Part shown: piece after piece, positions 3,001 to 41,200 of the stretch
Layout: each line of letters starts with the position of its first letter
Numbering within the stretch: the first letter of the stretch is position 1
Assembly: GCA_963924555.1 (NCBI GenBank)
Contig: OZ004584.1
Location: forward strand, 8,191,753-8,255,752
Length of the DNA: 64,000 nt
Direction of reading: 5' to 3'
DNA from: Crambe crambe
Lineage: Eukaryota; Porifera; Demospongiae; Poecilosclerida; Crambeidae
Translations under genes and position numbers: made by a program
Notes under the pieces: model-generated
What the model was told of the DNA's origin: nothing
Seen by the model: the letters and a program-made list of their open reading frames with translations, nothing else
The model's database searches: none

Positions 3001-6000
3001 AGTAACTGCATCTAAGCATAAGATAAATAAATGAATTTTAAATCATTACTTCATCTTTTTTCTTCAAGGATTTGGAACTAAAACTAGCATAAACATTTCA
3101 AACTCGATTAAGTGTTGAATATTACCTGTAAGATGGGCTGTACTGTGTTTCAGGGATGTATCATCTAACTGTTTCCTCTGTAGCTGAATGCAAGCATAAA
3201 CAAGGTTTTCTTTCGAGCTAACATGGTTAGACATGTCTTGATAAGTCTTCTGTTGGTGTCTGGAAGGACTGAAACAGTCCCTATGGGCACTGGATTCCAT
3301 CATGCCCCTTCGCAGGGACTTGAAAGGCAGCAAGAAATACCAAACGGATCTCGTTCTGATTCCCTGTTGATGTTTTTTGTCTTGCTTCCATTAATTTTTT
3401 TTCTTCCTCTCTCTCTCTGTGTATTTGAATTCAGCACTGGTTGTTAGGAATGGCATGATTGGATCGTAGTAGGCATGGAAGCCTCACCTCTTCTGTGGCC
3501 ACCCTTTCTCCAGTTTTCCAAGCCTTATTTGAGCTTTCCTCTAATGTTATGTTGTTTGGTTTTCTTTCATATCTTGAATTTTTTACTCTCTTTTTAGGAT
3601 ATGTATGATTATCCCATTTTGTGTCATGCCTAGCCTAGTCCTTTTAAGGTGTTGTGACATATTTCCATTTGCCTCAAATATTCTTCCATTTGTCTAAAGA
3701 AACCACAAGACATTTGCTGTTCCTCCCATTACATCCTACCTCTCTTACCCTTCATCCTGTCAACCCTCCTCCCCTCACGTTCCCATCGTCTCATCTTTCC
3801 CACTTGGCGGGTATGGGATATCATCACTAGTGATGATTTCATGCTACGTAAGTGTTGATTGATTGTGGGGCACACATGCCAATCTGAATTTCATGCAAGA
3901 ATATGAAGTACCGGCATGGCAAAGGATTCAGGTCACATTATACCCATCGGTGCTAAGTTATGTTGTCACAATAAACAGGTCCCACTTTCATAACACTTCT
4001 TACGTTCTCGAGACAATCCTCTTTTGTATGTCCTTATCGGGAAGCCTTGCGGCCAAACCTGTGTCATTGTTAGCTCCCTGAAGTGGACCTCTGTTTTTGA
4101 ATACTTTGGGAAGGCAATGGAGATTTTGTCTGGGTCTTGTACCCCACCTCTTGGGGATCTGTGAATTGGGTGTGTGCCTTTACCTTTTGCTGTTTCTGCA
4201 GTGAACACAAAGCCGAATACTTGTGCTAACTCCCTCCCTACTTTCACCAGACAATTGAATCATTTTGTTAATATGTTTTATTAGACTTAGTCGTAACTAA
4301 ATGTTTTTTTTCCCATAATTACTTTAAAGAAAAATTATATAATGACCACTCCCCTTGGCTGTTGTAATTAAGTAGCTAATTAATGAAGGAGTCTCCCCCT
4401 CTTTCATAGCCATAGACAATCCACTTTAATCAGCATAGGAGTCTCCCCTTAATTATTGCCTCCAGTATATCAATTAGCACAGGAGCCTTGTTTTTTCTCT
4501 GGTGTATATTTTCCACTTGATGCCATATTATGATTTGAAAGAATAATTCTCCAAATTTGTTGAGTCGTAGTCCACAAGGCACGTTCTAGACAAACCTTAT
4601 TTGGATATAAGCGAATACATTAACAAATAAACAATCTCGCATAAATATTTCCTCAAAGTGAACCGTCAGTCTTGAACTGTGGCCTTGTATCGAAGCTTGG
4701 TGGGTGGGGAATGTTTAGTCTCTGTATATCAACATTGAACCATTTTTGTGCTGTGTGTGTGGTATGCCTGCCTTTTAGCACGATGGTTTTGCCTCAAAGA
4801 GTAGTCGACTCTACATTTAAACAAAAATAAGAAAGTCCTTCGATACGAGTAGCTGTCATTGTTATTGTCAGGACCAATTTGGTTTTGCCCAAATTTCGCA
4901 TTGATAGAATTAGAGCTGTAAATCCCCGAGGGCTTTTTTTCAGCAAACATGGATGTATGAAGTCCCATGCACATGTTTTTAGAACGGGAAGATCATTGGC
5001 TTTGCTGCATTTCGAATTCCATTTTGTAATTGAATCATTGTATTGTTATCAAGTTTATTATGTAACGCCTTGTGTGGAAAGCGGAGCTCTTTATTTATGC
5101 CAATCCCTGCGGGTAGAAATCAAATTTTGTTCCGTTTTGAATTAAGTAGATTGGATTAGCTCTATACCAGATGCTCTTTAATGACATTTCCAAATTCACG
5201 TATCCTATTATATAATGATTGTAGGATGGTAGTCAAAAGTTGAATATTGATGGATTCCAGGAATGATTTCTCATTTCTCCCTGAGATGATGGCAGTATTG
5301 GTGTGCTCTCAGTTATTGCACCACAAGATGACTCGCCTACATCCACTAACCACTACATGAATGCTCTGAATATTGAAGGAGGGTCTTACTTTCTTGAGGC
5401 TTAGAGAAACAAGATTGTACTGGAATATAACTAACCCTGTAGAGCTTCTTGTATTATTATCCCACATACATTGCTACCCTGTATATTAAGTGAATTAAGA
5501 CTGCATCTCGAAATCAAAGTGATGCCCTGTTACAGCCTGTCCCATACTTCATTGCTCTGTGATTTGTGTTTTAACTTGTGTGCTTTTCCCCTCTCTTTTT
5601 GCTATTGTTACGCTGCACCATTTCCTTTTTCCCCTCGTTATTCTTTTCTTCTGGCCATTATAACCAACTACCCATTGAAATCTATAGCATTAGAAACTGT
5701 CTCTTCTTTACAAAAGGGGTCAAAGTAGACCTTAAGTTCTTCTATTTAAAAAAACAAAACAAAAAAAACCCTAGTGTTAATAACTTACTTTATCATGAAA
5801 GGATAATGATAATGGAAGAGGGTGTCGTGTAAGAGATAGGTTGAATAAAGTCTGATATTCTGGTCGTGTTGTATTACAGGTTTATGTTTATGGAGAATTC
5901 TTATTTTGTGGATGTTTGCGAAATTTAAGAATGGACTGAAGCAGTAATGTGTGAACCACATCGATTTTGGGCTTTCTAAAAAAACTAAACTGCATGACCA

Positions 6001-28605: not shown

Positions 28606-30541
28606 ATGGCTCATAGTTTCGAGAATTTCATGGGGAATAAAACCTTCCACCCTGGAAGCTGGACAAACCAGAAAAAGGTGAGGGATTGCCCAAGGCCATC
28701 TTTGGGAAGTTTTCATCCACTCCACCCCCCCCCCCCCCCCCCCCCCCCCCGTGTAGATGTGGGAGGCAGAACAGAGGCAGAAACAGGAGGAGAAGAAGCA
28801 AGAGGCCCTTAGACTCCAATACCTCAAAGAACAGGAGCTCTACCAAACAAAGTAAGTACGGGCCTGCAGGCCATACCCACAATTACCACACCCCCTTGTG
28901 TACCTTTTATAAATAGAGAATTGATGGGTAAGGCTAATCCTCTTCACTTCATGTACCAACTTCCACCTGGACTCGAAAAAGGTAATGTAAAAATTGTACA
29001 AACCATCCAAGCATCCATACTTTATATAATCAATGAACTATGGACAGATAAAACAAAAGAGAAAGACGTGAATGAAGAGACAGGTGAACCACGCTTGAAG
29101 TTGAAGTCTCGTCCTGGAGATGCCGAGGGAGAAGGAGGAGGAGGAGGCAAGGGAGAAGGGAAAGAGGAGCCTTTGAAGTTCGAGTGGGAGAAGGAAGGGA
29201 GGGCTGCCCCTAGGGAGGATTATGCCAAGAACCTTCAGTTGAGGGACCAGCCATTTGGCATTGAAGTCAGAAACGTCAAATGTTTCAAGTGTGGGAAACT
29301 GGGCCATTACAATACTGATAAGATTGTAAGTATGAGTGAGTTACAGCTGGAAGTGTACAGAAACAAACAGTACTTCTGTCATGCCCACTGCAGTAATGAT
29401 ATATATTCAGTGGAGCTTCTGATAAGGGACACTCTGAAAGGGACAAACCTCTCAACAAAGGACGATCTAAAAGTACCTTTTTGTACATACGCTGCCTCTC
29501 TACAAAGGACAAGGGATGGGTCCCAAGTGTGTGCATTATTCCGAGGTTCCTCTATAGGCAGTCCTCAAATCTCTTATCCCCAGGGACACTTTATTCTCTT
29601 TTTTCTAGTGTCCACTCTATGGACAGGCCAAGCCCAACCAGGCCCCGCCCACAAGCACCACCCCCCTCTCCTTCAAAGACCTAGACACAATGGAGGATGG
29701 TCTCATCTTCAGACAGTGTGTGAAGGACAAAGTGGTGGACCCCAGTGCAGCCAATCAGCAGATCCTGGCCTCTGATGAAGACGAGGGGGAAACAGAGTAT
29801 GGGAAACTTCTCTCTGGCTTCAGCAAGAAGGAACGGAAGAAGATTCTCAGGAAATTGGCCAAGATGGACTCTTCAGAAGGAGGAGGAGGAAGGGGAGAAA
29901 AGAGGAAGAGAAAAGAGAAACTGAAGGGAAAAAAGAGTAGAAGGAAGAAGCATTATCATCACAGTAGTAGCAGGAGTAGCAGTGAGAGTGAGACGGACAG
30001 TAGCAGTCAGGAGGAAAGGACAAAGAGGAAAAGGTCAAAGGTTAAAGCTAAATGTGACAAGCCTGACAGCAGCAGTGAGGAAGAACGGAAGAAAAGAAAG
30101 AGGTCAAAGGTGAAAGCTAAACATGATTACAGTAGCGAAAGTGAGTCTGAGAGCAGCAGTGATAAGAAAAGAAAGAGATCAAAGGTCAAAAAGCAACACA
30201 GTCCAGGCAGTGGTGAAGAGTGGAAGAGAAAGAAGAGGTTGCAGTGTGAAGTCAAAAGTGGAAGTGAGGGTGTATGGGTGGAGTCTAAGACAGTGAGGAG
30301 GATGTATGAGGGACGCAGACAGTCTCATGAATATGAAGACAAGCACAGGCTAGAACTAAAGAAGAGACATGAAAGGGACTCAATTGACAGGAAAAGAAAC
30401 ATGTACAGTGAGAGAAGGAAGGAAGAAGATCGTTCTCTTGATGGAAGGAGACGATGTGACAGTGACTTGGGTGATGGAGAAAGAGCCAAGGACAGAACTA
30501 ACAGGAGACATGAATATAAGCATCACCACAGAACTCACTGA
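28606..30541 (+). CDS. CIR1: CIR1, corepressor of the Notch effector CSL (copy A, complete)
   Basis: Exons 28606-28677, 28757-28851, 28917-28981, 29060-29325 and 29609-30541 (TGA) give 476 aa in consistent phase. The N-terminal Cir_N region is clear: [19 protein letters not shown], then [16 protein letters not shown] and [10 protein letters not shown]. Next come [38 protein letters not shown] and a CCHC-like knuckle (C-x2-C-x4-H-x6-C, split by the last intron). The C-terminal half is a Lys/Arg/Ser-rich tail typical of the family. In vertebrates CIR1 bridges RBPJ/CSL to HDAC and SAP30 repression complexes and also meets splicing factors. It is convergent with the kinase gene (161 bp between stops), and an AATAAA lies at 30626. 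Its 3' half is repeated at 34922-35836. Confidence 0.93.
28723..28750. repeat. Poly-C run before the CIR1 exon 2 acceptor
   Basis: A run of about 26 C's ends 6 bp before the exon at 28757 and forms the polypyrimidine tract of that short intron. Confidence 0.9.
29409..29558 (-). mobile_element. MITE-like repeat, family 1 (in CIR1 copy A intron)
   Basis: About 150 bp with GTGGAGCTTCTGATAAGGGA at one end, GCATTATTCCGAGGTTCCTC at the other and the shared CCTCTCAACAAAGGAC core. It is also present at the same place in duplication copy B (34720-34870), so it predates the duplication. Confidence 0.75.
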
Positions 30542-30702: not shown

Positions 30703-32784
30703 TCAGTTTCTGAGTTGGTCGATTCTCTCCAGGACTTGCCTCATTGCAGGTCTGTCTTGGTGGGTGTGGCTAGTACAGTCTCGTGCCAATGGGAACATGT
30801 CTGGAGTAGCATGGTGCACATCTCTCAGCATGGAGGGGAACTGGAGTCTGTCAGGAGGGAAGCGACACAGAGCCACCTCACACACCAGCACACCAAAGCT
30901 GTACACGTCTATCTTTGCTGTCTGTTGGCTCCGGTCTTCCGTGCTCACCTCAGGGGCAGAGTACACAGCTGCTCCCTCGAAGGGGGTGGTGGCAAGGTGA
31001 CTCAGGTTGGCTGATCCAAAGTCAGAAAGCTTGGCCTTCCACTGAGCCTCTGATCTTACCCCCTCCAAGAGGACGTTGGCACTGCTGACATCTCTGTGGA
31101 TGATGGGGGTATGATGGGAGTGGAGGTAGGTGAGGGCTGATGCCACGTTCCTCAAGATGGGCACTTTACTTCTCTCCTCCAACACACCATCTTGGTAGGC
31201 AGAACGTAAGGATCTGTCCAGTAGCTCAGTGACAATCAAAGGCCCCGCCCCTTCTGTGGTTAAGACGGCTCCAATCAGGAGGAGGAGGTTGGGATGGCGG
31301 ACCTGAGCCATGATGCTGATCTCACGTCTCACCCTCCCCTCGTTCTGTGGGGAGAGGATTTCTCGATGGAGACACTTCACTGCCACTTTCTCACCTCGGA
31401 ATGTGCCTTGGGCCACGTAGCCCCACCCACCAGTTCCCAATAGGGTCTGTGAGATGTGGACGTCTTCACGAGGGAGTTCCCACAGATCAAGCAATTGAGG
31501 GGGCACTGTCTCTCCCCTACATAAGGCAATTACTCCTTCAATACGACCTGCAAGTTCCTGTCGTTGGACCTGCTCCTCTCTGAACTGACGTTGGTACTGT
31601 TCTGACTCATTCCTCACGCGCTGCAACTCAACCACATGACGTTCTCTCTGTCCTCTCAGCTGATCTTCAAATCTAGTCACAGTTTGTTGCAGCTCTTCAT
31701 CCTTCCTCCTAATCTCTTGGTCCTTCCTCCTCACCTCCCCCTGCAGTCTGTTCACCTGTTCTCTTTCTTGCCTCAGCTGCTGCTGGAGGTGGTGAGTTTC
31801 TTGTGTCTTCTCTCTCAGTTCTCTCTCCAGTTGTAAGATATGATCTTGCAACTCACCACTTGATGTTGCACTAACAGAAGGTGGTTGCTCCATCTCAGCC
31901 AAAGACAGAAAAAGACCACATCCATCATCACAAGTGAACTTTTTAGACATATAATAAGTTCCATCACTGTCCCCATGTCCACGGTACTGCTGGTCCTAAT
32001 GTTGTTAATATCAAGACAAATGTTGTGAGGGAAACTAACAGGAGCACATCATGGTTATGTAGGAATGAGAGTTTCTGGAAATCAGATTGTCCTATTCAGA
32101 CTTATAAATAGATATTTTGTAAGGTGGGGTAATTACGAGGGTGGGGCAATTCCGACACTGTAAAAAAAATAGTGACATTCCAGTCAGCCTAGTCAGAGAA
32201 ACAAAGATGATCAAAAATGATGGAATAGCCCCGCCTTACTTTATGCATATAATGTGCTTTTCTTACGTATGTGCAGGCAAGTATGGGGGAGGTACTGGTA
32301 GACCTAGGGAGAAGGGAGGGATGCTTAGTACTAGCTAGTTCATACATACTGTGATCTCCACTCCAAATCTATGATAATCAAATAGATCAGTCCCACACCA
32401 CCTAATGATGGCAGTTGTGTACTGGTGCTGCTGTCCACCACCAGAGGAGCCACGCCCACTCCCATCAGGTAGTCTTGCCAAAACAGTGTCCCCCACCTTG
32501 AGACCACACCCCCACTTCAGCTTCCCTGGAGTGCTGTAGACTGTGTAGCGGTCAGCAACAGAGACAATGCCATTCAGAACCACACACTCTTCCTTACTCA
32601 ATGCAGCCACCTCATCAGCACTACAACGTAGAGGAGGAGGAGGAAGACGAAGATTAGTACTAGTATGGATATGGTCACGGTAGGAACCATCATTTAGCGA
32701 TTTTAATAGACATCCACGAGAATAGTAGTAACCGTTATCTCTCAACAATATGTAAGAATGAGGTCCACTAAGATTACCTGCCAT
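30703..32784 (-). CDS. CAP-Gly / coiled-coil / TKL-type protein kinase (copy A)
   Basis: Two exons, 32784-32350 and 31995-30703, joined in phase 0, give 575 aa. Residues about 100-175 form a CAP-Gly-like domain split by the intron: LKVGDTVLARLPDG, FGVEIT, then QYRGHGDSDGTYY and KKFTCDDGCGLF. It is closest in style to CYLD CAP-Gly domains. The GKNDG signature reads GDSDG here. Residues about 190-300 are a Glu/Arg/Gln-rich coiled coil. The kinase domain (about 325-575) has GTGGWGYV, VAVK (K about 352), IIHRDVSSANVLL, DFG (about 470), a short activation segment, YSAPE, DVYSFGVL and QDRPAM, so all catalytic residues are present. The fold looks TKL/RIPK-like. A CAP-Gly joined to a kinase is not an architecture I know. 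Substrate is unknown; tubulin or EEF/Y tails, or CYLD-type partners, are possible ligands of the CAP-Gly part. Confidence 0.85.
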
Positions 32785-32901
32785 TTCAACAAGCCACACC
32801 CACAAAACAAAAGACCCTTTACCAAACAAGGTACACAAAAAGAGGCCATGCAACAATGTGTGCAGAACAGTAATTAGCATGTGTGATAGTCATGTGACAG
32901 G

Positions 32902-34078
32902 TCACAAGTCCACATAAGCTGGGTCGTTCTTCCTCCCATTGGTGTACACTGAATGCAGTGATGTCCCAGCAACTTTCTCTGCAAGATGGTTGTAAGCCGT
33001 ATTGGCCAAACTGACCCCACCCCTTCCACCTCCATAACCACACCTACTTGACGAACTAGCAGGTGAATAGGAAAGATCTGATGCACTTCCAATGGCTGAA
33101 TCTCTGTTGGTGTGTCTTGTATTCCTCCTTCCAGCTGAACCTGTGCCAGCGACGTCTTCCGGGACTTATTGGTCTCCTTGAAACTCCGCCCCTTCTTCAT
33201 ATTGTTGAGCGTCATCTTGTGGGTGCTACCTGGGGACATTCAAGAGCTGCCAATAAAGAAAGAAATTCCCCCACAAAATTACAACTCAAAGGAACAGAAG
33301 CGTTAGCCAAAACTAAAACTAAAAATAACACACCAAATAAAGGCATTGTTACTACTACTCCTCGATAATATTTAATCAATCTTGTATGATACCTATCGTA
33401 TAAAAAAGTTACTATTATAAATAAAGCAGAACTTGTTAAACCATGGGCCAACATTAAAAATACAGCCGCTACTAACCCTTGACTTGTATGACTAAAAAGA
33501 CCTAAAGTCACTAAACCCATATGTGCTACCGAAGAATAAGCAATTATACGTTTTAAATCAATCTGCCTACACGTCGTTAAACTCCTAAGGAACCGTCAAT
33601 GTAGCATGGAGCCGAGTGTCGGGAAGGGTCCAAGCCATTCATGGCCACTCTTGAATCAAACTCGGAGTCCAACCTTTTGCAACTTCCAGACATTTGATCC
33701 AACGTCCTCCTAGTATGTTCAGGGGTGTTTTGGGATGGGGGGAGGGGCTACGGGAGAAACTGGGGGCAGGGTGTTTCGCCTACTGAAGTCGGAGAGACTA
33801 ATGGCAGGTAGGGAAGGTCGACTACAAGCAAACTTGTTCAAGTCACTCAGGGAAAGAGCACCTCCGGATGTAGACAGACTCATAAGACCTGATTGTAGTA
33901 TCCGATCTCGACCGAGGGCAGCCGAAACATCGTATTTTTTCAAAGGGGATAGTCATGACTGCAGTGCCGTTGGATGCCGAGATGACGTTCACTTAGAGAG
34001 GTGTGGTCACTTTGAGGATTGCTTCAGAAAGGACGGCACTTGGTTGGTCAGAAACAGTCACATGGAAGGAGGTGCCAT
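32902..34078 (-). pseudogene. DOK copy A, broken duplicate of DOK exon 3
   Basis: Matches the last exon of the intact DOK gene (38255-39381). Upstream PH-domain exons are absent because the duplication ended in intron 2. About 240 bp of the PTB region is missing at 33923, at a GCAG microhomology. A 10-bp gap near 33110 shifts the frame, and a nad4 fragment replaces 5 bp at 33237-33587. The acceptor-like CTAG at 34079 is retained. A normal adaptor cannot be made. Confidence 0.9.
33237..33587 (-). pseudogene. nad4: NUMT: nuclear insert of mitochondrial nad4 fragment
   Basis: On the minus strand, about 115 codons read straight through as NADH dehydrogenase subunit 4: QIDLKRIIAYSSVAHMGLVT, LFSHTSQGLVAAVFLMLAHG, HTRLIKYYRG, SVPLSCNFVGEFLSLLAAL. 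It is a proton-pumping antiporter-like core of complex I, encoded in mtDNA. Both edges are sharp against copy B: flanks TGGGGA and AGGAACC are shared, with 351 bp here in place of 5 bp there. There is no mitochondrial promoter or full gene, so it is a dead insert. The still open frame suggests a young insertion. The base composition (AT-rich with long poly-A stretches) differs from the host exon. Confidence 0.93.
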
Positions 34079-34205
34079 CTAAATGGAATAATAGAGAAGA
34101 GAAAGTTATTACATACAGACTACAGTACAATAATGGTAGGTACAGTTTAGCCTCCTATTTTTCGCAGGCCTGCATGGGTACGAGGCTAGGGCTAGGGCAC
34201 AGTTA

Positions 34206-34284
34206 CTCAGGGGCGGATCCAGGAATATTTAGAAGGGGGGGTCAGTTGTATAGTGTTAGGCATATCCACACGGATAAGCGGGTA
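34206..34284. other. Junction filler between the two duplication copies
   Basis: About 80 bp that belongs to neither copy. It contains GGGGCGGATCCAGGA and a G run. A related GGCTGGATCCAGGATTTT occurs at 42967, so a mobile-element fragment may mark the breakpoint. Confidence 0.5.
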
Positions 34285-34285
34285 C

Positions 34286-34519
34286 CTCTTTTTCTGATAC
34301 TGGACTTTGCTTCATTCATCTCTTTGTCTTCCCCCTCTCCATTGTAACTGGGCAATCAGAGGGCAAGCCCCTTCATTAGTGCTTCCTTGGCCTTTTCTTG
34401 ATGTTGCTGACTCAGCAAACAACTGGCCATCAACTGGTGTGCCTCGGGGGTTGCTAGGACATATCTCTATAGCCTTGCTGCAACACTCCCAACAACGCTC
34501 ATCCGCACCAGACTCAAAA
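34286..34519 (-). pseudogene. Acl4-like exon remnant in copy B
   Basis: Matches the Acl4 exon at 26861-27110 but is about 16 bp shorter and isolated, with no neighbouring Acl4 exons. It is left over at the edge of the duplication. Confidence 0.85.
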
Positions 34520-34558
34520 CTGAGAGAAAGGAAGAATATATCATTTTAACTAAACTGG

Positions 34559-34640
34559 ATCCTCCGAATAACGGACACATTTGGGACCCAGCATTTCGTC
34601 CTTTGTAGAGAGGTTGTCAATGTCCTCGAGTGTATATACA
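34559..34640 (+). mobile_element. MITE-like repeat, family 1, truncated at the copy-B deletion
   Basis: Equivalent of the 27153-27339 element but cut after GTGTATATACAAAG, where the sequence jumps to the CIR1 intron. Confidence 0.75.
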
Positions 34641-34719
34641 AAGTGAGTGAGTTACAGCTGGAAGTTTACAGAAACAAACAGTACTTCTGTCATGCCCACT
34701 GCAGTAATGATATATATTC

Positions 34720-34870
34720 AGTGGAGCTTCTGATAAGGGACACTCTGAAAAAGGACAAACCTCTCAACAAAGGACAATCTAAAAGTACCTTTTTGTACAT
34801 ACGCTGCCTCTCTACAAAGGACAAGGGATGGGTCCCAAGTGTGTGCATTATTCCGAGGTTCCTCTATAGG
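34720..34870 (-). mobile_element. MITE-like repeat, family 1 (copy of 29409-29558)
   Basis: Same insertion site and sequence as in duplication copy A, with a few base changes. Confidence 0.8.
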
Positions 34871-34921
34871 AAGTCCTCAAATCTCTTATCCCCAGGGACA
34901 CTTTATTCTCTTTTTTTCTAG

Positions 34922-35836
34922 TGTCCACTCTATGGACAGGCCAAGCCCAACCAGGCCCCGTCCACAAGCACCACCCCCCTCTCCTTCAAAGACCTTAACA
35001 CAATGGAGGATGGTCTCATCTTCAGACAGTGTGTGAAGGACAAAGTGGTGGACCCCAGCGCAGCCAACCAGCAGATCCTGGCCTCGGATGAAGACGAGGG
35101 GGAAACAGAGTACGGGAAACTTCTCTCTGGCTTCAGCAAGAAGGAACGGAAGAAGATTCTCAGGAAACTGGCCAAGATGGACTCTTCAGAAGAAGGAGGA
35201 GGAAGGGGAGAAAAGAAGAGGAAGAGAAAAGAGAAACTGAAGGGAAAAAAGAGTAGAAGGAAGAAGCATTGTCATCACAGTAGTAGCAGGAGTAGCACTG
35301 AGAGTGAGACAGACAGTAGCAGTCAGGAGGAAAGGACAAAGAGGAAAAGGTCAAAGGTTAAAGCTAAATGTGACAAGCCTGACAGCAGCAGTGAGGAAGA
35401 ACGGAAGAAAAGAAAGAGGTCAAAGGTTAAAGCTAAACAGGAGTCTGAGAGCAGCAGTGGTAAGAAAAGAAAGAGATCAAAGGTCAAAAGGCAACCCAGT
35501 CCAGGCAGTGGTGAAGAGTGGAAGAGAAAGAAGAGGTTGAAGTGTGAAGTCAAAAGTGGAGGTGAGGGTGTATGGGTGGAGTCTAAGACAGTGAGGAGGA
35601 TGTATGAGGGACGCAGAGAGTCTCATGAATATGAAGACAAGCACAGGCTGGAACTAAAGAGACATGAAAGGGACTCTATTGACAGGAAAAGGAACATGTA
35701 CAGTGAGAGAAGGAAGGAAGATTGTTCTCTTGATGGAAGGAAACGATGTGACAGCGACTCAGGTGATGGAGAAAGAGCCAAGGACAAAACTTACAGGAGG
35801 TGTGAATATAACAAGCATCACCACAGAACTCACTGA
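34922..35836 (+). pseudogene. CIR1 copy B, 5'-truncated duplicate
   Basis: Last CIR1 exon only (305 codons including stop; 311 in copy A). It keeps its upstream CTAG acceptor and the downstream AATAAA at 35921, but the four 5' exons with the Cir_N region, the CCHC knuckle start and the promoter are lost. The frame is intact and encodes [11 protein letters not shown] followed by the same [11 protein letters not shown] and basic Ser-rich tail, with six codons lost near the AKQESES stretch. An ATG within it (35003) could start a 277-aa tail protein, but no promoter is evident. Likely a decaying fragment, possibly transcribed. Confidence 0.8.
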
Positions 35837-35997
35837 GTCACTTGATAATGATACCAAAACTATGTGCCATTCTTTTTAGATGAAACTAACACACCAAAAC
35901 AACAACAACAACAGACCCAGAATAAATAATTATTGCTACAAGTTACTAAGTAAAGAAAACTATTATAATTAGATCAAAGTCATGATTGCTTCTTAGC

Positions 35998-38141
35998 TCA
36001 GTTTCTGAGTTGGTCGATTCTCTCCAGGACTTGCCTCATTGCAGGTCTGTCTTGGTGGGTGTAGCTAGTACAGTCTTGTGCCAATGGGAACATGTCTGGA
36101 GTAGCATGGTGCACATCTCTCAGCATGGAGGGGAACTGGAGTCTGTCAGGAGGGAAGCGACACAGAGCCACCTCACACACCAGCACACCAAAGCTGTACA
36201 CGTCTATCTTGGCTGTCTGTCGGCTCCGGTCTTCCGTGCTCACCTCAGGGGCAGAGTACACAGCTGCTCCCTCGAAGGGGGTGGTGGCAAGGTGACTCAG
36301 GTTGGCCGATCCAAAGTCAGAAAGCTTGGCCTTCCACTGAGCCTCTGATCTTACCCCCTCCAAGAGGACGTTGGCACTGCTGACATCTCTGTGGATGATG
36401 GGGGTATGATGGGAGTGGAGGTAGGTGAGGGCTGATGCCACGTTCCTCAAGATGGGCACTTTACTTCTCTCCTCCAACACACGATCTTGGTAGGCAGAAC
36501 GTAAGGACCTGTCCAGTAGCTCAGTGACAATCAAAGGCCCCGCCCCTTCTGTGGTTAAGACGGCTCCAATCAGGAGGAGGAGGTTGGGATGGCGGACCTG
36601 AGCCATGATGCTGATCTCACGTCTCACCCTCCCCTCATTCTGTGGGGAGAGGATTTCTCGATGGAGACACTTTACTGCCACTCCTTCACCTCGAAATGTG
36701 CCTTGGGCCACGTAGCCCCACCCACCGGTCCCCAATAGGGTCTGTGAGATGTGGACATCTTCACGAGGGAGTTCCCACATATCCAGCAGTTGAGGGGTCA
36801 CTGTCTCTCCCCTCAATCCTGCCATAGCAATGTCAATACGAGCTGCAAGCTGACGTCGTTGGACCTGCTCCTCATTGAGTTGCTGTTGGTAGTGCTCCCT
36901 CATTTGTTGCAACTCCATTGCATGACGTTCTACAGTTTGTCTGGACTCATCGTTCCTTCTCCTCACCTCCCCCTGCAGTCTGACCACTGTCTCCCTCTCT
37001 TCCCTCACCTCCTGGTCCTTCCTCCTCACCTCCCCCTCCAGTCTGACCACTGTCTCCCTCTCCTCCCTCACTTCCTGGTCCTTCCTCCTCACCTCCCCCT
37101 GCAGTCTGTTCACCTGTTCTCTTTCTTGCCTCAGCTGCTGCTGGAGGTGGTGAGTTTCTTGTGTCTTCTCTCTCAGTTCTCTCTCCAGTTGTAAGATATG
37201 ATCTTGCAACTCACCACTTGACGTTGCACTAACAGAAGATGGTTGCTCCATCTTAACCAAAGACAGAAAAAGACCACATCCAGCATCACAAGTGAAGTAC
37301 CTAGTATCACCATAATGAGTTCCATCATTCTTCCCACGTCCACGGTACTGCTGGTCCTAATGTTGTTAATATCAGAGCAATCAAGACAAATTTTGTGGGG
37401 GAAACTAACAGGAGCACATCATGGTTATGTAGGAATGGAGTTTCTGGAAATCAGATTGTCCTATTCAGACTTATAAATAGATATTTTGTAAGGTGGGGTA
37501 ATTACGAGGGTGGGGCAATTCCGACACTGTAAAAAAAAAAAAGAAGTCAGAGAAATAAAGATGATCAAAAATGATGGAATAGCCCCGCCTTACTTTATGC
37601 ATATAATGTGCTTTTCTTACGTATGTGCAGGCAAGTATGGGGGAGGTACTGGTAGGCCTAGGGAGAAGGGAGGGATGCTTAGTACTAGCTAGTACATACA
37701 TACTGTGATCTCCACTCCAAATATATGACCAACATAATCAGTCTTCCCACACCACCTAATGATGGCAGTTGTGTACTGGTGCTGCTGTCCACCACCAGAG
37801 GAGCCACGCCCACTACCATCAGGTAGTCGTGCCAAAACAGTGTCCCCCACCTTGAGACCACACCCCCACTTCAGCTTCCCTGGAGTGCTGTAGACTGTGT
37901 AGCGGTCAGCATCAGAGTCAATGCCATCCAGAACCACACACTCTTCCTTACTCAATGCAGCCACCTCATCAGCACTACAACGTAGAGGGATAAGGTCACA
38001 GTAGGAACTATGAAGGAGAAGGCGATGGCTATGGTGCTTGTAGGAACCATCACTTCGCAATTGTGATAGACATCCACGAGAATAGCGATCTTTGTCTCTC
38101 AACAATATGTAAGAATGAGGTCCACTACTATTAACTCCCAT
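35998..38141 (-). CDS. CAP-Gly / coiled-coil / TKL-type protein kinase (copy B)
   Basis: Two exons, 38141-37704 and 37356-35998, phase 0, 597 aa. It has the same architecture as copy A. The CAP-Gly half in exon 2 reads QYRGRGKNDGTHYGDTRYFT, which contains the exact GKNDG signature, so this copy best shows the domain identity. The coiled coil is longer than in copy A because a 21-residue unit (VRRKDQEVREERETVVRLEG) is tandemly repeated. The kinase domain is nearly identical: GTGGWGYV, VAVK, HRDVSSANVLL, DFGSAN, APE. The 5' region starts 113 bp after the DOK stop on the same strand, leaving little room for a separate promoter. Both copies are uninterrupted, which suggests both are used. Confidence 0.87.
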
Positions 38142-38254: not shown

Positions 38255-41200
38255 TCACGAGTCCACATAAGCTGGGTCGTTCTTTCTCCCATTGGTGTAT
38301 GCTGAATGCAGTGATGTCCCAGCAACCTTCTCTGCAAGATGGTCGTAAGCCGTATTGGCCAGACTGACCCCACCCCTTCCACTTCCATAACCACACCTAC
38401 TTGACGAATACGGACTGTAGCCAGAGGGACTAGCAGGTGAATAGGGAAGATCTGATGCACTCCCAATGGCTGAATCTCTGTTGGTGTGTCTACTAAAAGC
38501 TTGTATTCCTCCTTCCAGCTGAACCTGTGCCAGCGACGTCTTCCGAGACTTGTTGGTCTCCTCGAAACTCCGCCCCTTCTTCATATCGTTGAGTGTCATC
38601 TTGTGGGTGCTACCTGGGGAGCTTGAGGAACCGTCAATGTAGCATGGAGCAGAGTGTCGGGAAGGGTCCAAGCCATTCATGGCCACTCCTGAATCAAACT
38701 CAGAGTCCAGCCTTTTGCAACTTCCAGACATTTGTTCCAACGTCCTCCTAGTATGTTCAGGGGTGTTTTGGGGGTGGGGGGAGGGGCTACGGGAGAAACG
38801 GGGGGCAGGAGCCACAGTGTTTCGCCTACTGAAGTCCCCTGGAATTGGTCCGGAGAGACTAATGGCAGGTAGGGAAGGTCGACTACGAGCAAACTTGTTC
38901 AAGTCACTGAGGGAAAGAGCACCTCCGGACGTAGACAGACTCATAAGACCTGATTGTACTATCCGATCTCGACCGAGGGCAGGGAACTCCGGATGACCAT
39001 AGTGGGACTTCACCACGTAACTGTACAAGTACTGTGATTGGTCGCCTTCTTCCATGATGAGGTGTTCACGTAATGCGAGTTCGATGGTTCTCTTGTACTC
39101 CTGCACGATCTGATATGCTCTCTCGATGCCTGCAGCAATGGTGAAGAATTTGAAGTCCTCTCCTTCGTCATTACAACCACAAGTTTCAAACCAGATCACG
39201 TCTGAATCGATGACAATCTGGCAGCCAAAACGTCGTATTTTTTCAAAGGGGATAGTCATGACTGCAGTGCCGTTGGATGCCGAGATGACGTTCACTTTGA
39301 GAGGTGTGGTCACTTTGAGAATAGCTTCGGAAAGGACGGCACTTGGTTGGTCAGGGACAGTCACGTGGAAGGAGGTGCCATCTAATAGAAAAGAGAGAGA
39401 GTAAAATTATATTTATGTGAGACTACAGTACAGTAAAGGCATAATACAGTTTAGCCTCCTACCCATGCCAGCTTTTTTCGCAGGCCTGCATGGGTACAAG
39501 GTTAGGGCACAGTTATTTAAACTGACAGAAGACCTCCTACTCCACACAGCTAGCTACTGTTAGTAACTGTGAGAGGAGACTGAACTAAAACTAACCAACC
39601 ACTCTCCAGTCATCACATGGCCAATTGATGGCTGAGGATTGATACACGTACATAGCAAATAGATGGTGATTAAGATAAGATACACAAAAAATCTTCTAGG
39701 AATAACATCCAGTCATCCCCTCATGAAGACCCTAGACCCGACAACCATCATGTTGATGTTGTTGCATGGCTAAATATAGTCTATTTTTCACTACCTTGAT
39801 ACTTTCTCAATTCTTCACCAACTTTCAGACACAAGCAGACAGTAACACCCTGCAAACATATCAAACACTGCCTACTGATCCCTCCATGAGGTTGCTTTGA
39901 ATACTGGGTCAGGAACTACATGTATCTGTTCCTTCCTGTTTTTCACATTATTTCTTCTCTGTAACTCTACATAGTTTCACTCCTTCATAGGAAGTTAAGG
40001 TATTATTGAGGGTGGACAGCTGCGGTTGCTTGTTCCTTCCAAATAATGTGATTTGCAGGACAAGAAGAGATGTTTGGTAGTAATATATAATGTACTGGAG
40101 CAGACCACGGCAGGCACTAAGTGGGATGTACTAGCTCATTTAAGACAACACTTTGGGAACCTTCACCCTTGAAAAATCACCCCTCAGAGTTTAGGACAAC
40201 TATTATTTAACAGGACACTTATTTCCCCTATGCTATTTACATGACCTAGTAATAAATAAATTCAATATCACACAGAGCCACACCTGAACACATAACAGAA
40301 TCACCATCTGCCCCCGAGCATGTGACTGACTGACCGCACTTCCTTATAAGGATGGTTTCCACGACTACAGCCAGTCTAGTTTCTACAGCACCATCTGCTC
40401 ATTATCATAAACAACAACAAAAGCCCGAAAGAATGTTGATCGAGTCAGTAAAGCAGTAAAATTTAAATAAATCAAGTTTGAGCGATGCTTATATTCACTA
40501 TTGCCACTAACACCATTTGGCATGCATGGTATGTCAATGAAGTTAAATTTAATGGTGAAAGTGGATAAGCATACTGACATATTAGGTCTAAAGTACAGTG
40601 GCTCAAATCATAAAGAGGCGCACTAGCAACTATGCAAGGAGATAAAAGGTTTTAGTTCAACCCATGCCAAGTTTTTGCCTAGTTTCCAGAGTACTTTACT
40701 TTATTCTAATGAGTAGTGGCTGCAGGGTATGCCCTCAGGGTTCACAGACATAACAGCAAGGGCTGTGTCTTGTGCAAGTATCATTCCAATGTGAGGCTGG
40801 GCTTGTCTCCACTCCTAACAAAGTTAAACCTTGTGAGAAAACATTCAGTCATTCGATCAACCACATCTACCCTTTTGAAGCCATTACACACCATCTTCAT
40901 GTCCGTTCCATTGTGCCAAGATTTGAAACAGTCATCACACACATCCCAATACTTCATAGCAGCACAAAAAAAACAGTAATTGATGGGGGGGAGTTTATTA
41001 CACAATCTTTTCACTATAATACCTCCTGTGGCCCCAAAGTCATTGCATTGTTATCCCTTTCTACAGTGAACTCTAGAGAAAGAGAGAGGGAGACTTGTAG
41101 GAACCAGGATGTACCATTGCAATTGACAATGACAAGGCAGGAAAGGGAGAGACAACATTGCTCAATATCTATTTCCAGTGGAGAGGAAATGGCCATTTAA

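Follow-up and report, generated by a model that had tools for sequence, protein, structure and literature searches.

Two tandem genes of the sponge Crambe crambe that probably join a CYLD-like N-terminal module to a coiled-coil, TKL-like kinase

The deubiquitinase CYLD, which restrains inflammatory and cell-death signaling, carries three CAP-Gly domains. According to published accounts, the first CAP-Gly domain of human CYLD binds a peptide of RBM25, modelled as a helix, and the third binds NEMO (PMC13376213); the first and second help microtubule binding (PMC13376213, PMC8511506); and ubiquitin is bound by the second and third, with no detectable binding by the first (PMC8511506). Caspase-8 cleaves CYLD directly after the first CAP-Gly domain (PMC5135002). 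For a sponge, Amphimedon, CYLD has been drawn with a RING finger, with CAP-Gly and with deubiquitinating domains, no kinase being named in the part of the account consulted (PMC5796713). In this study, we analyzed a stretch of 64,000 nucleotides of the genome of the sponge Crambe crambe (the window; C6:8191753-8255752, within a 143 Mb genome of 119 contigs) and found two tandem two-exon genes on its minus strand, at 30703-32784 (copy A) and 35998-38141 (copy B). We consider it fairly probable that they belong to a family in which a coiled-coil TKL kinase cassette follows the CYLD N-terminal module, and in which a paired kinase is recruited through a fast-changing recognition module. This reading draws on the architecture, its repetition in nine copies on two contigs, the homology to CYLD, the catalytic motifs and the purifying selection on the kinase.

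A sequence-only reading of the locus had stated that no kinase was known to carry a CAP-Gly domain. This is not strictly right, as a kinome paper of 2005 lists, for trypanosomatids, a kinase of the CAMK group with a cap-gly domain (PMC1266030). As described there, that kinase resembles the window genes in combining a kinase and a CAP-Gly domain in one protein and differs from them in kinase group. No TKL kinase with a CAP-Gly domain and no joining of CYLD to a kinase was found in the literature searched; proteomes lay outside this search. The features of the two genes, in coordinates of the window, are as follows.

37704..38141, minus strand: copy B exon 1, with the start Met, the CYLD-like N-terminal region and the first half of the CAP-Gly domain; 146 amino acids
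37986..38093, minus strand: copy B hypervariable N-terminal loop (N-loop), residues 17-52; 36% divergence from copy A
37243..37859, minus strand: copy B segment spanning the CAP-Gly domain (GLKVGD...KMEQ) together with the intron; when scored by itself, 49.7 bits with Pfam CAP_GLY
37357..37703, minus strand: copy B predicted intron, GT...AG, phase 0, interrupting the CAP-Gly domain
35998..37356, minus strand: copy B exon 2, with the second half of the CAP-Gly domain, the probable coiled coil, the kinase and the stop
36001..36777, minus strand: copy B kinase domain, with GTGGWG, AVK, RRE, HRDVSSAN, DFG and APE; Pkinase 114.4 bits
32350..32784, minus strand: copy A exon 1; 145 amino acids
32632..32736, minus strand: copy A hypervariable N-loop, residues 17-51, compared with that of copy B
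31885..32505, minus strand: copy A segment spanning the CAP-Gly domain together with the intron; GDSDG replaces GKNDG; 30.1 bits for the segment alone
31996..32349, minus strand: copy A predicted intron, GT...AG, phase 0
30703..31995, minus strand: copy A exon 2, with the second half of the CAP-Gly domain, the probable coiled coil, the kinase and the stop
30706..31482, minus strand: copy A kinase domain, with every catalytic motif kept; Pkinase 117.2 bits

Searching the genome with the CAP-Gly part gave 30 matches, and searching with exon 2 gave at least 95 (scores were obtained for 93 of 380 candidates). Nine copies with two open exons emerged: the two in the window, six at C6:8120-8150 kb and one at C13:3886-3889 kb, the last with 66-67% identity. 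A Met stands shortly upstream of an xILL motif in eight of the nine, as it does in the five aligned N-termini of the CYLD-type genes on contig C21 that are described below. Other remnants of the family were also seen, namely a broken copy at C6:6474-6477 kb (C6:6474603-6476983), kinase fragments at C6:8123-8124 kb and, at C6:8129727-8130005, what seems to be an isolated exon 1; all three were kept out of the alignments.

The sequence indicates that exon 1 is spliced to exon 2 in both copies, giving predicted proteins of 598 (B) and 575 (A) amino acids. Left unspliced, exon 1 meets a stop within a few codons of the donor, and the exon 2 frame begins right at the acceptor, the TAG of which is a stop in that frame. 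The phase-0 junction proposed by the sequence-only reading as completing the CAP-Gly domain recurs at the same GT...AG place in all nine copies, inside the domain between GVEIT and [DE][QK], with intron lengths of 273-1042 bases (above 1 kb in C6:8125 and in the C13 copy). Each unit might instead contain two genes, a short one encoding half a CAP-Gly domain and another that starts separately and encodes the kinase, which is conceivable insofar as the joining of the exons is deduced from DNA. We regard this as extremely improbable, since exon 1 would end mid-domain and exon 2 begins with the other half, the splice sites hold their place in the nine copies and in the CYLD-type genes as well, and the exon 2 Met of ..MEQ, which could serve as a start, is present in only 5/9 copies.

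Scored alone, the CAP-Gly segments of all nine copies exceed the gathering cut-off of Pfam CAP_GLY (PF01302; 26.5 bits), at 30.1-49.7 bits, copy A being the lowest. On the joined proteins the score is 45.0 bits for copy B and 25.3 bits for copy A, just below threshold; the profile check proposed by the sequence-only reading accordingly found the domain in all nine segments and, of the two joined proteins, in that of copy B, with that of copy A marginally short of the cut-off. Pkinase matches the joined proteins at 114.4 bits (B) and 117.2 bits (A). Each has one CAP-Gly domain against the three of CYLD, the stop comes after the kinase, and Pfam found no UCH/USP match in them at an E-value of 1. 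The stretch between the CAP-Gly domain and the kinase is a probable coiled coil, judged by composition and by a hydrophobic period of 3.5 that gives the top peak in copy B and the C13 copy; in copy A a peak at 2.3 exceeds it, and coiled-coil families in Pfam gave weak matches below their cut-offs on the joined proteins. With the coil graded as probable, the order of domains first described for the two intact tandem copies stands. A structure prediction for exon 1 of copy B alone was unusable (mean predicted local distance difference test score, pLDDT, 32.9).

The motifs of active protein kinases (G-loop, VAIK-type Lys, helix-C Glu, HRD, DFG and APE) are all present in the nine copies, as had been noted for the window genes. 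Among the best 60 of 704 matches in the PDB, the closest relatives of the kinase domain include CTR1, TNNI3K, RAF, MLK4 and IRAK4, which are alike in this domain and all, to our knowledge, without a CAP-Gly domain; CSK, a tyrosine kinase, scores similarly within the same 60. We call the kinase TKL-like by these best matches, and not by a formal kinome classification.

The CAP-Gly domain itself bears on what the genes recognize. GKNDG is the signature of CAP-Gly domains that bind EEY/F, and the sequence-only reading, which had found it in copy B, suggested targeting to microtubule tails. The motif is indeed exact in copy B, but in that copy alone (1/9); copy A reads GDSDG, and the lysine is absent in 8/9. 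A microtubule-targeted kinase, with a CAP-Gly domain binding the EEY/F tails of tubulin or EB proteins, would agree with membership of the CAP-Gly family in Pfam, with the motif of copy B and with the reported contribution of the first two CAP-Gly domains of human CYLD to microtubule binding (PMC13376213, PMC8511506). It is harder to square with the missing lysine and with the loop after NDG, which by an eye count has 4-14 residues among the copies; an invariant ligand poorly fits a CAP-Gly domain whose most variable part lies there. As exact GKNDG occurs in one copy of nine, tubulin-tail binding is unlikely as a shared function of the family. Copy B alone may be targeted to microtubules, the whole family hardly, and we hold the explanation to be unlikely overall.

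Likeness to CYLD, remarked on earlier for the CAP-Gly domain, extends to the region before it and is in that respect stronger than was noted. About 94 residues upstream of the CAP-Gly domain match CYLD-type genes on contig C21 in the genome search. Aligned with hhalign and with the first CAP-Gly strand retained, the N-termini of eight family copies (C6:8136 omitted) and of five of the six C21 genes (C21:5028, incomplete, omitted) match with a probability of 98.3, an E-value of 1.6e-14 and 29% identity over 94 columns, and this comparison gave 80.8 against 17.8 for the best of 60 column shuffles. With the strand removed, the probability is 97.4, the E-value 1e-11 and the identity 28% over 83 columns (64.3 against 20.4 for the best of 60 shuffles). 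The first CAP-Gly intron of the C21 genes has the same place and phase as that of the window genes. Since the N-terminal region and the CAP-Gly domain are both CYLD-like, the gene is best read as the first module of CYLD followed by a coiled-coil kinase cassette. The window genes would thus be like CYLD in their N-terminal region (as compared with the CYLD-type genes of this genome), in the first CAP-Gly domain and in the place and phase of its intron, and differ from it in having a probable coiled coil and a kinase instead of further CAP-Gly domains and a USP domain. The caspase-8 cut boundary of CYLD lies close to the point where the window gene departs from CYLD.

The C21 genes are assigned to the CYLD type from their CAP-Gly domains and their USP exons. 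In the gene at C21:3722-3717 kb, minus strand, the first CAP-Gly domain scores 57.0 bits (joined N-terminus) and the last 39.5 bits, and the two USP exons bear an NSCYLDAT box and a His box. The corresponding exons in a sister gene match CYLD (PDB 2vhf) with E-values of 4.8e-13 and 1.6e-6. Pfam UCH gave no match to the two USP exons of the C21:3722-3717 kb gene at an E-value of 1; in the sister gene it gave 12.5 bits, below cut-off, for the His-box exon and no match for the Cys-box exon; and a genome search with PF00443 gave no match at the C21 CYLD-type genes. The USP assignment is made because of the 2vhf matches and the reading of the boxes. A stretch of the C21 genes that by eye resembled CAP-Gly2, spliced across GT...AG, was rejected, with no Pfam match at an E-value of 10 in two copies and no PDB match at the same value in one; at 5031 and 5048 kb, the genes show no recognized CAP-Gly domain besides the first and the last. 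A PDB profile search with the CYLD-type N-terminal region returned ribosomal uL30 and a few others at an E-value of 0.0057 or worse, which we judged to be chance. CAP-Gly matches were also seen at C15:1998-2000 kb on the minus strand, an unconfirmed candidate for CYLD.

The kinase half has relatives of its own. Its best genomic relatives have 33-44% identity and often stand directly behind a coiled-coil-like stretch (C14, C1, C13, C15). Ankyrin repeats precede two of those on C13, recognized by Pfam in one (L061) and by eye in the other (L067). Leaving aside the CAP-Gly family, the relative with the best E-value (L051, C15:6153318-6157493) has a DUSP-matching frame (30.5 bits; cut-off 29.3) upstream of its coiled-coil TKL kinase, at intervals 296-577 and 1063-2685; the two may belong to one gene. 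Together, the ankyrin, DUSP-frame and CAP-Gly contexts place the cassette behind more than one kind of front part. In a tree of 26 kinase rows (nine of the family and 17 others; L066, with no frame of 200 amino acids, was left out, and most of the 95 exon 2 matches were excluded), the window family forms one group with support of 92/93, under the starred level, and is sister to coiled-coil kinases from C1, C18 and C13, the 14 rows together having 100/99. The coiled-coil TKL kinases of this genome thus resemble the window genes in a related kinase that often follows a coil, and differ in front parts that are ankyrin repeats or none recognized. The L067 kinase (C13:2745195-2745950, minus strand) lies in an open frame reported as 8104 amino acids. 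Slightly downstream of a C14 TKL kinase is a DED-like frame (L054, 2396-2842; 27.3 bits, below the cut-off of 35.9), and a frame similar to it by eye lies at 2338-2838 of L058, also on C14.

A and B go back to a recent duplication, and they have not diverged evenly. Nucleotide divergence, calculated for seven of the nine copies (C6:8125 and the C13 copy, with long introns, were excluded), is 2.7% between A and B in the 5' flank, 2.4% in the intron and 2.1% in the kinase, against 36% in the N-loop, 11% and 15% in the first and second CAP-Gly halves and 29% in the 3' half of the coil. Between A and B, the core that separates the variable loops has hardly changed (2.4%). Each of the 21 pairs that the seven copies make shows an N-loop difference of 0.29-0.43. 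Amino-acid-changing differences between A and B number about 26 per 179 sites in the CAP-Gly domain against 8 per 338 in the intron (Fisher p 3e-7), and 6 per 592 in the kinase, no excess over the intron (p 0.16); these Fisher tests used rounded counts, and the N-loop test used two windows of 60 columns. The variable CAP-Gly residues concentrate at 133-140 and 153-164 of copy B, whose counterparts, we assume, line the ligand groove in known CAP-Gly domains, while several C, G and F positions of the domain are invariant. Ratios of nonsynonymous to synonymous divergence (dN/dS) were taken over all nine copies, C6:8136 only where letters are present. The kinase ratio is 0.22 over 28 C6 pairs and 0.17 over the eight pairs with the C13 copy. 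For the first and second CAP-Gly halves it is 1.63 and 0.81 within C6 and 0.33 and 0.27 with C13, so that both halves have been constrained over the longer time; for the N-loop it is 1.10 and 0.32, respectively, and for the core before the CAP-Gly domain 0.80 in the C6 array.

The divergence of the front part may be due to selection, to conversion or to both. One extreme would be a front part in decay, in which only the coil and kinase are of functional importance and the CAP-Gly region, having no part in recognition, changes by drift or through reshuffling by gene conversion. Its attractions are that the whole protein of copy A falls below the Pfam CAP_GLY cut-off, that one copy lacks the exon 1 start, that synonymous differences in the N-loop are raised and that mosaicism exists: the coil of copy B (about 36780-37050, minus strand) departs in its 3' half from copy A by 29% and from five array copies by 25-29%, and there looks by eye like that of the C13 copy, which suggests mosaicism in copy B. 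Drift alone, however, should not bring amino-acid changes in the CAP-Gly domain above the level of the intron, nor does it agree with the near-fixed core, the invariant C, G and F positions or the CAP-Gly ratios of 0.27-0.33 with C13. We consider decay quite unlikely.

Several findings nevertheless weigh against the fusion reading or against parts of it. On descent, the best solved match of the CAP-Gly part is CLIPR-59 (E-value 4.4e-6), ahead of human CYLD CAP-Gly1 (1whl, 7.9e-6), so the CAP-Gly domain by itself does not settle descent; this qualifies the likeness to CYLD first remarked on. The homology of the N-terminal region is established against CYLD-type genes of one species, Crambe crambe. 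The last CAP-Gly domain of the CYLD-type gene has the same intron place and phase, and other CAP-Gly genes probably share the place as well, their matches splitting near profile position 37-39; we therefore dropped intron position as specific proof of CYLD descent and take it as support. On integrity, C6:8136 is without the exon 1 start and part of the first CAP-Gly half, and the nine copies were chosen for being open while a broken copy exists. On selection, the second CAP-Gly half (0.81) and the core before the CAP-Gly domain (0.80) are near neutral in the C6 array, which weak constraint would fit too. The proportion of synonymous differences in the N-loop of A and B is high as well (0.27), more than selection on the protein alone would explain, and copy exchange or faulty alignment therefore plays a part. 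On catalysis, the loop reads HRDVSSAN in eight copies and HRDVSSTN in one, and lacks the Lys of HRDxK that is the rule for typical Ser/Thr kinases, so the type of substrate is not settled.

Under the fusion reading, a small expanded family would have arisen when the CYLD N-terminal region and first CAP-Gly domain became joined to the coiled-coil TKL kinase cassette. The N-terminal and CAP-Gly module would bind a peptide-like partner, and the coiled coil would pair the protein; recruitment would then cluster the kinase domains, leading to their activation and to a signal in a pathway of the kind that CYLD regulates (NF-kB, JNK or cell-death type). With the loops at the presumed binding groove changing fast, the copies may recognize different or evolving partners. 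The genes may have an immune or ubiquitin-pathway role, as the sequence-only reading supposed.

CYLD-type genes that carry a separate kinase were found on C21. Three of them, within 5014-5053 kb, have a kinase (C21:5018658, 5034899 and 5050622) between the first and last recognized CAP-Gly domains, with USP exons after, and contig order and splice sites suggest that each locus is one gene. In the gene at C21:5014-5021 kb, a single open frame (L074:1907-3301, 465 amino acids) encodes both the kinase, at 131.9 bits, and the second half of an additional CAP-Gly domain, which scores 18.2 bits alone and 43.7 bits when joined to its first half. This kinase family is distinct: identity to the copy B kinase is 28%, and many kinases, mainly on C3, are up to 74% identical. 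In all three genes the Cys box NSCYLDA is replaced by NSSCLDA, with Ser at the expected place of the catalytic Cys and a Cys adjacent; the His box is retained in both of the genes where it was read. These genes are like those of the window in having a CYLD-type N-terminus and a kinase, and differ from them in the kinase family, in the presence of a last CAP-Gly domain and USP exons and in the Ser at the catalytic Cys place.

The front module of CYLD would then have been joined to kinases in two separate ways. We put forward, tentatively and as a possibility short of even likelihood, that the window family comprises intracellular recognition kinases that use the first CYLD module as a diversifying receptor domain, the kinase staying constant while the N-loop and the CAP-Gly groove vary by selection and exchange, and that CYLD-type genes separately gained another kinase as their catalytic Cys changed to Ser, so that a scaffold for ubiquitin editing was twice made into a kinase. 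The front parts of A and B diverge far beyond their kinases, as is often the case in recognition proteins. If the joined protein is made, the family offers a natural test of what the N-terminal region and first CAP-Gly domain of CYLD, which are little understood, recognize; if the loops are under diversifying selection, the CAP-Gly domain would be a new recognition scaffold in a receptor kinase that faces partners and perhaps pathogens.

Other features of the window accompany the two genes. Upstream of copy B is an open frame on the minus strand (38255-39406), for which a PTB-domain protein was considered and rejected, as no Pfam family matched at an E-value of 0.1; its counterpart in the unit of copy A (about 32900-34080, minus strand) appears broken by eye. 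Inserted in that counterpart is a mitochondrial fragment (33212-33595, minus strand; Proton_antipo_M, 116 bits in Pfam) that we take to be ND4-like. A lysine- and serine-rich open frame, for which no Pfam family matched the copy at 34922-35836 at an E-value of 0.1, occurs on the plus strand in two copies, there and at 29609-30541, and belongs to the tandem unit.

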